Position numbers and translations under genes: made by a program. A model generated the notes under the pieces. It saw nothing but the letters and a program-made list of their open reading frames with translations. It searched no databases and was not told where the DNA came from. Below, one piece after another: positions 33,709-38,705 of a stretch of 64,000 nt of DNA. This DNA is from Nitrospirota bacterium. GTDB taxonomy: Bacteria; Nitrospirota; Nitrospiria; Nitrospirales; Nitrospiraceae. Positions within the stretch are counted from its first letter, which is position 1, and the number at the start of each line of letters is the position of its first letter. Location of the stretch: positions 62,001 through 126,000 of the forward strand of contig JBFMAX010000005.1 in the NCBI GenBank assembly GCA_040755395.1, read 5' to 3'.

Positions 33709-36062
33709 GACTCAATGGGGCCGCGGCATTGCTGCCGCGGAATCGATCATGCCGCAAGTGACGGTCGCGCCCTGGGATAAGCTTCAATGGGGCCGCGGCA
33801 TTGCTGCCGCGGAATCCGCGTTCGGTTGCACAGGCGCAACATGACTTGCACGTGCTTCAATGGGGCCGCGGCATTGCTGCCGCGGAATCGCAACGGGGGA
33901 ATACGTCAAGATCACGGGGGTAGGTGGCTTCAATGGGGCCGCGGCATTGCTGCCGCGGAATCGAAAGCGCGGCAGGCGATTTACACGGCTATTGCTGGCG
34001 CTTCAATGGGGCCGCGGCATTGCTGCCGCGGAATCATAGGATGCTACCTAGAGCCGCACGCGAGATTGCACGGCTTCAATGGGGCCGCGGCATTGCTGCC
34101 GCGGAATCCCCCACGCGTGCCGTTACGCTGGCGTCACGACCGAGCTTCAATGGGGCCGCGGCATTGCTGCCGCGGAATCCTCAGGAATATCTTGTGCGGC
34201 GTGGCGTCTTCCAGGCGGCTTCAATGGGGCCGCGGCATTGCTGCCGCGGAATCGATGCGGAGCGCCGCCTCCAGGGCGCCGCGGATGGCGTGCTTCAATG
34301 GGGCCGCGGCATTGCTGCCGCGGAATCTACGTTCAGCGCCGGGCGTTCTCCCGCGACCCATACGGCTTCAATGGGGCCGCGGCATTGCTGCCGCGGAATC
34401 GTTTTGGCGCGAACTAGCCGCCGACCTGAAGAAACTGCTTCAATGGGGCCGCGGCATTGCTGCCGCGGAATCTCCCGCCCGGCCGCAACCACAGGAGGGC
34501 AGGTCATGAGCTTCAATGGGGCCGCGGCATTGCTGCCGCGGAATCCGGCGTGACGCGCCGGTGGGGCACGCGGTTCGTGGCTGCTTCAATGGGGCCGCGG
34601 CATTGCTGCCGCGGAATCTGAGTGGCCACGACTGGATGACTGCGACCTCGGATGGCTTCAATGGGGCCGCGGCATTGCTGCCGCGGAATCGGCACGTCGC
34701 CATCCCTGACCGTGAAGCTCCAGCGCGCTTCAATGGGGCCGCGGCATTGCTGCCGCGGAATCGGACAAGGCAAGTATTGCAGTCGCTTGTGTCAAGGCGC
34801 TTCAATGGGGCCGCGGCATTGCTGCCGCGGAATCCAGGAATCTCCGCATATCGGCGGTTCGCCAGCTTATTGCTTCAATGGGGCCGCGGCATTGCTGCCG
34901 CGGAATCCCAGAGCAGATACCAATCGGTCTGCTCGGTCGTCAAGGCTTCAATGGGGCCGCGGCATTGCTGCCGCGGAATCAGCGTCGCCCGCACCTGCTG
35001 CGCTGAAGCAGAAAGCGGCTTCAATGGGGCCGCGGCATTGCTGCCGCGGAATCACGACGGCGGCGGCTCAACCCGTCGTCGGCGACACGCTTCAATGGGG
35101 CCGCGGCATTGCTGCCGCGGAATCTACGTGCCCCGGCACTGCCCGATCCCCCGCTCACGGCTTCAATGGGGCCGCGGCATTGCTGCCGCGGAATCGTGAG
35201 GCAGTAGAGACTCGCACACAAATTCAGTATTTGCTTCAATGGGGCCGCGGCATTGCTGCCGCGGAATCGATCGGCAAGGAGTTTCTGAAAGCGACGACGC
35301 CGGAAGCTTCAATGGGGCCGCGGCATTGCTGCCGCGGAATCTGGGCTGATCGCCAGCACGGCGGGCACGCTCGTCGCGCTTCAATGGGGCCGCGGCATTG
35401 CTGCCGCGGAATCGGGCAACACGTTCCGTGTGGATGGTCGGCAGGTCGCGCTTCAATGGGGCCGCGGCATTGCTGCCGCGGAATCGAACGAAGAGAAGCC
35501 ATATAGTTTGTATTTCCAAGTGCTTCAATGGGGCCGCGGCATTGCTGCCGCGGAATCGGCTTCGATGTCGCCGCAACGAACCCCGTCACGGAGCTTCAAT
35601 GGGGCCGCGGCATTGCTGCCGCGGAATCGCTTGAGTGCTTAACACTCAAGTTGAGCGAATAAACGCTTCAATGGGGCCGCGGCATTGCTGCCGCGGAATC
35701 GCGCCCGCAGTCCGCGACCTGTCCGTGCGCGAATGGGCTTCAATGGGGCCGCGGCATTGCTGCCGCGGAATCTCCGGGGAGACTTTTCTCTCGCAGCGAT
35801 GAACGTCTCGCTTCAATGGGGCCGCGGCATTGCTGCCGCGGAATCACACCCGAACTCCTGTACAACTTCGGCGATGTCCTGGGCTTCAATGGGGCCGCGG
35901 CATTGCTGCCGCGGAATCGGGAGCCAAGCAGCCGGGTTCGCTCGGGACTTCGTTGCTTCAATGGGGCCGCGGCATTGCTGCCGCGGAATCGCCAAGATCA
36001 AAGCGGCCTCGCTCGGCGAATTGGTCGCTTCAATGGGGCCGCGGCATTGCTGCCGCGGAATC
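33709..36062 (-). CRISPR. CRISPR array, 33 repeats and 32 spacers, type I-G
   Basis: 36-bp repeats beginning GCTTCAATGGGGCCGCGG and ending CTGCCGCGGAATC on the plus strand; spacers 35-38 bp. The repeat holds a perfect 8-bp stem CCGCGGCA/TGCCGCGG with TTGC loop. All repeats are identical except the one at 33709-33744, whose end reads GACTCAATG. On the minus strand the repeat ends ATTGAAGC, the classic crRNA 5' handle, so the array is transcribed leftward from the cas2 side and 33709 is the old, decayed end. Newest spacer: 35991-36026. Perfect uniformity suggests a maintained, active array. Confidence 0.98.
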
Positions 36063-36153
36063 AGCTCTCGTTGATGTGCATGTTTTTCTGCACGTCCCGG
36101 CGCACAGTGCGAGCACCTCCGCTTTCAAGCAGTAGTATCTCTACGAATTGCAC
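36061..36153 (-). CDS. Possible 30-residue leader peptide ending at the first repeat
   Basis: GTG start 8 nt after a strong AGGAGG. The peptide begins VQFVEILLLESGG and ends QKNMHINES. Its TGA stop uses the first two bases (GA) of the first repeat, so spacer addition would never change the peptide. Coding is unproven; the ribosome site is the main support. Confidence 0.3.
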   Translation of the reverse strand: MQFVEILLLESGGARTVRRDVQKNMHINES

Positions 36154-36269
36154 TTGTCTCACCTCCTCTCATTGCTGCCGCCCCGACAACTCAAGCGGTT
36201 CCATCGTCGCGAGCGCTTCCAGGGTTTCCACCGGCACACCACCGCTCGCGATGCACGGCAAACAATCTT
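36063..36269 (-). promoter_or_regulatory. CRISPR leader region between cas2 and the first repeat
   Basis: 207 bp adjoining the newest repeat. Leaders drive array transcription and mark the insertion point for new spacers. It carries CATTGCTGCCGC (36170-36181), a 12-nt copy of the centre of the repeat, and two small open frames described separately. No clear promoter box was found, so the array may be read through from the cas operon. Confidence 0.6.
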
Positions 36270-36273
36270 TCAC
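36169..36273 (-). CDS. Possible 34-residue peptide coupled to cas2
   Basis: The GTG overlaps the cas2 stop (GTGA), the pattern of translational coupling. The peptide starts MKDCLPCIASGGVPVE and ends PLELSGRQQ; codon use is GC3-rich like the neighbours. No family recognised. It is followed at once by the ribosome site of the second leader peptide. Confidence 0.3.
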   Translation of the reverse strand: MKDCLPCIASGGVPVETLEALATMEPLELSGRQQ

Positions 36274-36560
36274 ACCACTTGCGCCTGCCGCTCCACCTGC
36301 GTGAAACCTTTGCCCAGCGATTCGATGCTCTTAATCGGTCGTCCCTCCGTCGGACCCAGGTCGACAATGAGCACATGGTCTTCCTGATGATTGATCAGTT
36401 CGACCAGCGCGGCTTTCATCTTGATGACATCTATCTCCGGGAGATCGCACTGAAAGACCGAAAGCTGCACATGCGCGCCGAACCCCTTCATCGTCTTGAA
36501 CACCCGCCTGAGTCGCTTAGGATCGCAGATATCATACGTGACGATGTACAAACGTCGCAT
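36270..36560 (-). CDS. cas2: CRISPR adaptation protein Cas2
   Basis: 96 aa, normal for Cas2. MRRLYIVTYDICDPKRLRRVFKTMKGFG has the conserved first strand with YDI-D; FQCDLPEIDVIKMKAALVELIN and DHVLIVDLGP complete the ferredoxin fold. Cas2 dimers bridge two Cas1 dimers in the integrase complex. It lies 75 bp downstream of cas4-cas1 and 207 bp before the array. Confidence 0.97.
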   Translation of the reverse strand: MRRLYIVTYDICDPKRLRRVFKTMKGFGAHVQLSVFQCDLPEIDVIKMKAALVELINHQEDHVLIVDLGPTEGRPIKSIESLGKGFTQVERQAQVV

Positions 36561-36576
36561 AGCTCACCCACATCTA

Positions 36577-36629
36577 CGGGGACAGACCCCGCGCGCAGAC
36601 GCGGGGAAGGGGGTCAGTCCCCACCCCCG
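36577..36629. repeat. Imperfect long palindrome between cas4-cas1 and cas2
   Basis: GGGGACAGACCCC pairs with GGGGTCAGTCCCC (one mismatch), with a CCCCGCG...CGCGGGG stem inside. It could slow read-through or act as an mRNA processing site between the two adaptation genes. Confidence 0.5.
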
Positions 36630-36635
36630 CGTGGC

Positions 36636-38348
36636 TCACCGGGTCGTGAACGACGGATAGTTCGGGATTTCGCCGAGCAGATAGCGCCCGAACAGACGGG
36701 CCTGCACCTCCAGAATACGACGATAACTCACTTGATAGCCGAAGACCGGATGCGTAATCTCCTGGCTCATCCGCCGCTCGTAGGTCTCAATAAAACGCCG
36801 GCGGCCCTCTGTCGTCAGTGCGACGCTTCCCATGCGCCGAATGAAGTCCGTCGCTTGCACCTCGCCGTTGTTAATCGCCGTCAGTACCACGGAATCCGCG
36901 ATGAGCGGACGAAACTCTTCCATCAGATCCAATGCCAAGGCCGGACGCCCGTAGCGTGACTGATGATAGAACCCGAGAAAGGGGTCCAGCCCCACCGCGT
37001 GGAGGGTCACCGTCCACTCGCGAGTCAGCATCGCATAGGCCAGAGAGAGGAGCGCGTTCACGGGATCCTTCGGCGGTCGGCGGTTCCGCCCCTCGAAATC
37101 GAATTCCGGCGGCGCCCCATCGGCCTTGAGCATGCCCCTGAATTCGGCGAAGTACCGACGCCCGGCGGTTCCTTCAATGCCGAGCAGCTCCTCCAGCGAC
37201 TGCGCTTGGCCGGCATGCTGAAGATCGCGCTTCAGATCTTGCAACACCGTCGCCGGCGCCGCCATGTGATTGCGCCGTAAGATCGTTCGGCAGTTCGCAA
37301 TCTTCGCCTGCACCAACCGGGACGCGAGCCTGAGACAGAACCGCTGATCCATCGCGGCGGCGTACTGGCGTCGCCGCAACTCGACGTTCTTGTGCATCAG
37401 ACCGGTGGTGAGCCCGTAGAACCACCCGCCGCTGGACAGGTACGAAATGGGAATCTCTCGTTTACACAATTCCTGGACGGCTTGAGTGCTGACCTGAACG
37501 TAACCAAACAGCACCAGATGGGAGACTTCTACCAGCCTGGCTTCCGCCAGCACCTCGTCATGATCGACGACTTTCAAACACTCCCCATCCTTCTTCACGC
37601 GCGCGCCGGGCTGTTGCACATACAACGGCAGCGCATCGTCCCGCGCCGGAAGAAGACGCCGCAGCGTCGAGGCCGCCTGTGCGTCGTCCGCATGCTCCTG
37701 CCGCAACCAGCCGATCTCATCCGGCAAACAAATACGGACGAGAGAACAGCGTGGACACTTCGGACTGTCCACGAGCGGAGGCGGCACCGCGCCGCTTCGT
37801 GCCATCCCGCGCATGCCCGCGATCAATTCTAATGTGCGGTCGATCAGGGCCTGATCGAACGTGATCGCTACCCGCTCCCGGGACCCCACAAAGTACAGGA
37901 ATCCACCGTCGCACTCGTACCCGTTGTCGCGGAGGACCAGCCCTTGCGCGCACAACTGCACCTGTTCCGGCTCCCACGCACCCTTGCCCACATGCGGCCG
38001 CTTGCCCCGCTTGTAGTCCACCGGCGCGACGGTCGTCCCCACACCTTCCACCAGATCGATCTTTGCCGTCAGTCCCAGCCGCTCCGAGGACAGCCAGACC
38101 GAGCGCTGATGGATACCCGTCTCGGTATCCGCTGGTGCCTCATCCTCCAACGGCTGCCGTTTGGGGCTCTCATCCACCCGGCGATGGTGGAACCGCCCCT
38201 CCACCGTATCGACGCTGTCGGCAAACTCGCTCTGCACCCATTCCAGATAGGCCAGGCGTGGGCAGTACGCGAACTCGTTCAGCATCCGCACAGGGAGGAG
38301 CGGCTCCTCCGTCACCGAGAGAGGCGTGTCACCGGCTTCCTCGCTCAT
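36636..38348 (-). CDS. cas1: Cas4-Cas1 fusion protein
   Basis: 570 aa. Residues 15-215 are Cas4: RMLNEFAYCPRLAYLEW gives the first cluster Cys, APVDYKRGKRP the PD-(D/E)XK nuclease, CPRCSLVRICLP the other three cysteines. Residues 235-570 are Cas1: EGTAGRRYFAEF carries the metal Glu, DPFLGFYHQSRYGRPALALDLMEEFRPLIAD the metal His and acidic residue. Cas4 selects PAM-containing prespacers and trims them; Cas1 with Cas2 integrates them. A Cas4-Cas1 fusion is characteristic of type I-G (I-U). Confidence 0.96.
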   Translation of the reverse strand: MSEEAGDTPLSVTEEPLLPVRMLNEFAYCPRLAYLEWVQSEFADSVDTVEGRFHHRRVDESPKRQPLEDEAPADTETGIHQRSVWLSSERLGLTAKIDLVEGVGTTVAPVDYKRGKRPHVGKGAWEPEQVQLCAQGLVLRDNGYECDGGFLYFVGSRERVAITFDQALIDRTLELIAGMRGMARSGAVPPPLVDSPKCPRCSLVRICLPDEIGWLRQEHADDAQAASTLRRLLPARDDALPLYVQQPGARVKKDGECLKVVDHDEVLAEARLVEVSHLVLFGYVQVSTQAVQELCKREIPISYLSSGGWFYGLTTGLMHKNVELRRRQYAAAMDQRFCLRLASRLVQAKIANCRTILRRNHMAAPATVLQDLKRDLQHAGQAQSLEELLGIEGTAGRRYFAEFRGMLKADGAPPEFDFEGRNRRPPKDPVNALLSLAYAMLTREWTVTLHAVGLDPFLGFYHQSRYGRPALALDLMEEFRPLIADSVVLTAINNGEVQATDFIRRMGSVALTTEGRRRFIETYERRMSQEITHPVFGYQVSYRRILEVQARLFGRYLLGEIPNYPSFTTR

Positions 38349-38483
38349 ACAGACACTCCTTTCGCTATTCAGTTGTCAAAGAACGCGGCCGTATCGGTCA
38401 GTAGCCCATCAAATTTCGGTGTGTGTTTCTGACCCCACTGACACCGCTCACACCGCCACACCCAGCCCCAGGCCCAAGGGCAA

Positions 38484-38705
38484 TCATTCCTCAAACTCAC
38501 CGCGCGACACACCACTCTGCCGGATAATCGAGAGTAAGGTCCCGATTCTCAGCTCGGCATAATCGGAGACAGGAACCGTGACCGTCCCGGAGACATCACG
38601 ACGTTGCATGACCACCTGACTGCCCCGCCGACGGACTTCGGTGAAGCCGTGGCGCTCCAGAATGCGACAGACTTCTCTTCCAGAAAGAACACGGAGTTTA
38701 CCCAC
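38484..38705 (-). CDS. hicA: HicA-like toxin, catalytic His replaced
   Basis: About 73 aa from GTG 38703-38705, chosen because it overlaps the hicB stop (GTGGGTAA); an in-frame ATG at 38729 is also possible. The HicA fold is clear (VLSGREVCRILERHGFTEVRRRGSQVVM ... TVPVSDYAELRIGTLLSIIRQSGVSR). HicA toxins use the His of G-S-H to cut mRNA; here the position is Gln (GSQ), so the toxin may be inactive or altered. It sits inside the CRISPR-cas locus. Confidence 0.82.
   Translation of the reverse strand: MGKLRVLSGREVCRILERHGFTEVRRRGSQVVMQRRDVSGTVTVPVSDYAELRIGTLLSIIRQSGVSRGEFEE

Follow-up and report, generated by a model that had tools for sequence, protein, structure and literature searches.

An open frame running up to the first repeat in type I-G and type I-C CRISPR leaders of one family, and its possible role in array transcription

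CRISPR arrays are transcribed as long untranslated RNAs, and boxA is the known bacterial answer to the passage of polymerase through them. In trp-type leader peptides and attenuators, ribosomes translate a short frame that precedes the regulated transcript. Stringer et al. (eLife, 2020) reportedly described boxA/Nus antitermination of bacterial CRISPR arrays. According to passages of PMC7862264, which cite Stringer et al. 2020 for boxA in natural arrays, addition of boxA to a synthetic leader increased precursor crRNA about tenfold. For type I-G, passages of PMC10504553 document integration at the leader/repeat junction; translation of the leader does not figure in those passages. A search of titles and abstract openings in the open-access full-text literature found no report of a translated CRISPR leader. 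The type I-G locus described here has a leader in which a Shine-Dalgarno sequence is followed by a reading frame that stays open to the edge of the array.

The type I-G locus and the leaders compared

The minus strand of the window, the whole 64,000-nucleotide stretch of DNA that was analysed, contains a type I-G CRISPR locus that consists of a cas4/cas1 fusion, cas2, a 207-nt leader and an array. The Cas4g/Cas1g fusion scores 832 bits, relative to a curated cut-off of 560, and adjoins both cas2 and the array, as expected for type I-G. The array runs downwards from position 36062 and has 33 repeat matches. The features are, in the order of transcription:

36636..38348, minus strand: cas4/cas1 fusion of type I-G (NF049935, E 1.7e-250)
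36270..36560, minus strand: cas2
36169..36273, minus strand: frame 1, 34 aa, GTG start, with a GTGA overlap with the cas2 stop; not conserved, attributed to chance and placed outside the system
36063..36269, minus strand: CRISPR leader, 207 nt, from cas2 to the first repeat
36241..36249, minus strand: first arm of the leader inverted repeat, GCGAGCGGT
36209..36217, minus strand: second arm of the leader inverted repeat, AGCGCTCGC
36159..36167, minus strand: Shine-Dalgarno of frame 2, AGGAGGTGA
36061..36153, minus strand: frame 2, 30 codons, GTG start, TGA stop; open in 19/19 same-family type I-G leaders
36108..36116, minus strand: DNA motif GTGCTCGCA, at a fixed position, -52 relative to the array; shared by type I-G leaders and read as codons within frame 2
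36027..36062, minus strand: first repeat (RF01330, CRISPR-DR16), bases 1-2 of which complete the stop codon of frame 2

A promoter scan of positions 36020-38500 revealed no sigma-70-like promoter. Twelve nucleotides of repeat sequence, GCGGCAGCAATG, are present in the leader at 36171-36182, just 5' of the Shine-Dalgarno, and are absent from the alignment of relatives. Another gene of this genome (L230:697-2370) codes for a TIGR02710-family protein with a CARF domain; it lies near a further cas1-like gene, and no array was found within 7 kb.

Leaders, defined as the DNA between the cas2 stop and the first repeat, were collected by searching with the I-G Cas4/Cas1 model in 197, 175 and 269 genomes around the window (overlapping sets), and one scan with this model among named genomes gave 80 loci. 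Nineteen type I-G leaders from the same family were readable whole and have lengths of 207-218 nt, with L120 at 243 nt. Excluded from the counts were L039, L040 and L041 (the same contigs as L019, L015 and L023), L044 and L093 (considered duplicates of L042 and L092), L058, L068 and L108 (no repeat anchor), L109 (odd repeat), L121 (no repeat match), L064, L089, L090 and L094 (array not adjoining cas2), L020 and L030 (contig end), and loci with no detected array. For the type I-C controls from other phyla, 66 of 82 loci were kept and 60 of these were used. A held-out I-C set of 39, which is part of the match list (30 loci and 14 stretches), lost six members with leaders that could not be parsed (L247, L249, L250, L257 and L281 from other classes, and L267 from the window's class).

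The frames of the leader and the stop in the first repeat

A preliminary description of this DNA had proposed that two small frames fill the leader and that ribosomes would travel from cas2 to the edge of the array. The first of these, with 34 residues and a 4-nt GTGA overlap with the cas2 stop, is present in the sequence, but at chance level and with no conservation. An overlapping start occurs at the cas2 stop in 13 of the 19 same-family leaders, with the frame ending anywhere between leader positions 17 and 242, and such an overlap is trivial because any gene with xxA, xxG or xxT before its TGA yields an ATGA, GTGA or TTGA. No frame is kept open across the first 100 nt of the leader (17/29/13 stops in the 19 leaders) and frame 1, as it is not conserved, was rejected both as a real gene and as a relay from cas2. 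Of the proposed path, the stretch through frame 2 to the array edge therefore stands whereas the relay via frame 1 does not; frame 2 has a full Shine-Dalgarno of its own.

The second frame, described as having 30 residues, an AGGAGG and a TGA that uses the first two bases of the repeat, is indeed present and exceeds chance. With GGATCACCTCCTTT at the 3' end of 16S RNA in a family member, the motif in the leader qualifies as a full Shine-Dalgarno. In the window, the GTG is 8 nt 3' of the GGAGG within AGGAGGTGA, and the TGA is formed by the last base of the leader with bases 1-2 of the repeat. Over the last 91 nt of the leader, frame 2 has no stop codon in 19/19 leaders, compared with 13.2 +/- 2.6 after column shuffling, and none of 2000 shuffles reached zero, although neither these nor the dinucleotide shuffles model kinship among leaders. 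In the same region, 22 and 28 stops fall in the remaining two sense frames (19.4 and 30.8 when shuffled), and stops are partly depleted in the antisense frames too. When the region is extended to 100 nt, five leaders have a frame 2 stop, each at or before -97 and so 5' of the start. Thinning to <50% identity left eight leaders, with frame 2 open in all eight, and the frame-disrupting indels in relatives that the preliminary description had named as a test occur in none of the 19 close leaders.

In 13 of the 19 family leaders, the window's included, an in-frame ATG, GTG or TTG is positioned 8-13 nt 3' of GGAGG, and no start is present 4-19 nt 3' of GGAGG in either of the other two frames in the 19 leaders. 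The combination of a Shine-Dalgarno, a start and a frame open to the edge is found in 13/19 leaders; 100 dinucleotide-shuffled sets averaged 1.35 such leaders, and no set had more than 4. In L013, this combination is provided by a second Shine-Dalgarno at -62. L120 has its only in-frame start 17 nt from GGAGG, and five leaders of one clade (L012, L014, L018, L021, L026) have the Shine-Dalgarno with no usual start 8-13 nt further on.

Type I-C loci of the same class (Cas1c, TIGR03640) have leaders with the same plan and a different sequence. In a first set, all 20 were open, with no stops when 12.8 were expected (0/2000 shuffles) and with 48 and 18 stops in the other frames. Of six held-out leaders from the class, four were open (stops 2/17/9); the two that are closed are L256, whose stop at -89 is close to the start, and L272, which is from another family and has an in-frame stop. 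For the family alone, 21/22 are open, with one stop versus 12.2 (0/2000 shuffles), and the frame is open in 8/8 class-level leaders thinned to <50% identity. AAGGAG is present at -110 to -118 in 13 of the 22 family leaders and absent from nine; L130 and L271 have AAGGGAG at -94. In each of three genomes (G024, G060, G076), an I-G leader and an I-C leader, both with the open frame, occur together. Family genomes also have a third CRISPR system (L224-L228; cas1, cas2, cas4; repeat GTTGAA..GAACTGAAAG) with a conserved leader end; in these five close sequences, a frame ends either immediately ahead of the first repeat or inside it, and there is no clear Shine-Dalgarno.

The stop is supplied, in whole or in part, by the repeat. 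In 14 of the 19 I-G leaders, the stop is a TGA or TAA split across the leader/repeat junction, with the T in the leader. The remaining five (L010, L013, L024, L119, L120) have no such edge stop and instead have an in-frame TGA at repeat bases 12-14. The two forms are mutually exclusive, with no leader having both and none having neither, and when placed on the Cas4/1 tree they require four changes, two of which are forced by strongly supported branches. In type I-C, the stop is a TAG from repeat bases 2-4 in 19/20 leaders of the first set; L136 has TCG at these bases and would stop at a TGA of the repeat end. In two I-G leaders from another family of the order, L031 and L139, the leader frame is shifted and reads past the first repeat. 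Both look decayed: a single repeat was seen for L031, and in L139 the match to the Cas4/1 gene is broken into two pieces. The read-through fits with decay, yet it breaks the stop rule.

The frame ends no further than 14 nt into the first repeat in 19/19 I-G leaders and at bases 2-4 of it in 19/20 I-C leaders, as would also be expected if the halted ribosome acted as a gate, covering the hairpin of the first repeat and so delaying its folding or its cleavage by the Cas nuclease. The stop varies in position, however, being at the edge, in the loop or at the repeat end, and a stop placed simply before the spacer fits these positions equally well; such a gate seems very unlikely.

The conserved frame with its ribosome-binding site, and the look-alike peptides within close clades, could be accounted for by a small protein that functions in its own right. 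We consider this extremely improbable. The preliminary description had called for a dN/dS comparison, and frame 2 has no excess of synonymous change (synonymous fraction 0.126 vs 0.177 and 0.127 in the other frames), and selection on the peptide was rejected; nor is there a clear synonymous excess for the type I-C frame. Codon usage does not favour frame 2, but is uninformative as a coding test. The frame 2 peptide matches no protein family, is not conserved outside the -52 motif and has no conserved control codons, and the residues that frame 2 peptides do have in common fall on this DNA motif, which is read in a different frame in another family of the order (L029, L032).

As a DNA element, the -52 motif extends well beyond the frame. 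CTCG[CA] is present at -50 to -54 in 33 of 44 I-G leaders outside the family, when 2.1 would be expected, and the frame is not open there. The fixed blocks of the family leaders are GCGAGCG.., AGCGCTCGC, AAAGGAGGTG, a GCTCG that begins exactly 52 nt from the repeat, and the leader/repeat junction, with variable sequence between them. An inverted pair, GCGAG..CTCGC, occurs in I-G leaders of many phyla, in 36/44 outside the family and 17/19 within it. Type I-C leaders have the same three-part plan, with GCGCGAACC..GGATCGCGC followed by TTCGC near -54, in 19/20 leaders of the class (L033-L038, L124-L138). In type I-G, the inverted pair together with the third copy at -50 to -54 is probably a binding site for the integration complex or for a host factor. 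The suggestion in the preliminary description that the frame is tied to adaptation found no supporting evidence, the likely adaptation element being the separate DNA motif at -52.

boxA-like sites and the distribution of the open frame

None of the 19 family I-G leaders, the window's included, contains a boxA-like site, which sets them apart from boxA/Nus leaders. In the same phylum, 24 of 27 I-C leaders from other classes do have such a site, mostly at -93 to -98, and in these leaders all frames are closed (stops 68/53/75). In the window's class, one of 26 I-C leaders has a boxA-like site (Fisher p 9e-11 versus 24/27, with kinship ignored). That leader, L137, has the boxA-like site and the open frame together. 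boxA is present 5' of 16S in two family members, indicating that the host lineage still has the boxA signal. Outside the family, a boxA-like site was identified in 10 of the 44 I-G leaders.

The possibility that an open frame is general to all type I-G leaders was rejected, as these 44 non-family leaders have 38, 33 and 26 stops in the three frames; 6/39 I-G leaders outside the family combine a Shine-Dalgarno, a start and an open frame, versus 1.7 by shuffling. An open frame general to type I-C was rejected likewise, on the basis of the 60 leaders from three other phyla: stops were 61/36/51 in 24 leaders from the phylum of the Desulfobacterales genome G270 (with a boxA-like site in 8/24, most at -95 to -98), 15/16/10 in 12 leaders from the phylum of the Rubrivivax genome G269, and 39/55/38 in 24 leaders from the phylum of the Bacillota genome G272.

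These distributions bear on whether anything is translated at all, since the open frame might be a by-product of constraint on the DNA, imposed by binding motifs, spacing and relatedness. The leader motifs and their spacing are fixed, the shuffles ignore relatedness and the antisense frames are partly depleted of stops, which speaks for this reading. But the complete absence of stops is confined to the one frame in which a Shine-Dalgarno, a start and an edge stop all occur, with the other sense frames behaving as shuffled; the open frame survives thinning in two unrelated leader sequences (8/8 I-G, 8/8 I-C) and is absent from the 60 I-C leaders of the three other phyla. DNA-level constraint with no translation is judged to be quite unlikely.

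A translated leader with no conserved peptide would also be the anatomy of a translation-sensing attenuator, in which the leader frame lowers array transcription when translation fails, through starvation or phage shut-off, with no given peptide required. The leader, however, has no terminator-like stem-loop with a T run, the sole such site found being inside cas4/1, and an attenuator appears unlikely.

Leader translation and comparison with known systems

Judged from these sequence comparisons, the leader RNA is very probably translated. Given the conserved Shine-Dalgarno and start, an open frame with no conserved peptide and its end in the repeat, what selection seems to keep is the passage of the ribosome, not the peptide. 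The best inference is that frame 2 is coupled to transcription of the array, as the preliminary description had raised. A ribosome would bind the full Shine-Dalgarno ~105 nt 5' of the array, start at the GTG, cross the remainder of the leader and halt at the beginning of the first repeat. In doing so, it would shield the nascent leader RNA from Rho-dependent termination, and perhaps from RNases, with the result that RNA polymerase reaches the array, and the stop in the first repeat would keep ribosomes off the spacers. The released ribosome by itself would not protect the array; as speculation, this protection may come from repeat hairpins and bound Cas proteins.

Given translation, a role in antitermination is reasonably probable, because boxA is located at nearly the same place in leaders from other classes of the phylum. 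That leader translation substitutes for boxA/Nus antitermination of the array is a reading towards which the leader sequences incline us slightly. The broadest formulation is offered tentatively, as plausible but somewhat short of probable: that in two CRISPR types within one family boxA/Nus has been exchanged for ribosome escort, with the repeat stop dismissing the ribosome, expression tied to translation and the repeat shaped accordingly. If true, there would be a second way, beside boxA, for polymerase to get through CRISPR arrays; the supply of crRNA would be linked to translation, and hence to phage shut-off; and CRISPR repeats would be subject to a coding-type constraint, seen as the TAG at the repeat start in type I-C and as the edge or loop stop in type I-G. 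As the exchange would have occurred within one phylum and one CRISPR subtype, it is directly testable.

Three described systems come closest. The type I-G acquisition leaders of Cas4/1-Cas2, as presented in passages of PMC10504553, share with the window the same Cas4/Cas1 fusion family and a leader directly before the array. As in trp-type attenuators, the window leader has a short frame ahead of a regulated transcript; unlike them, it has no conserved peptide, control codons or terminator-like site, and its stop codon is supplied by the CRISPR repeat. In the boxA/Nus system, as in the window leader, an element ~100 nt before the first repeat would assist polymerase through a long untranslated array, but in the family I-G leaders the place of boxA is taken by a Shine-Dalgarno, a start and an open frame.
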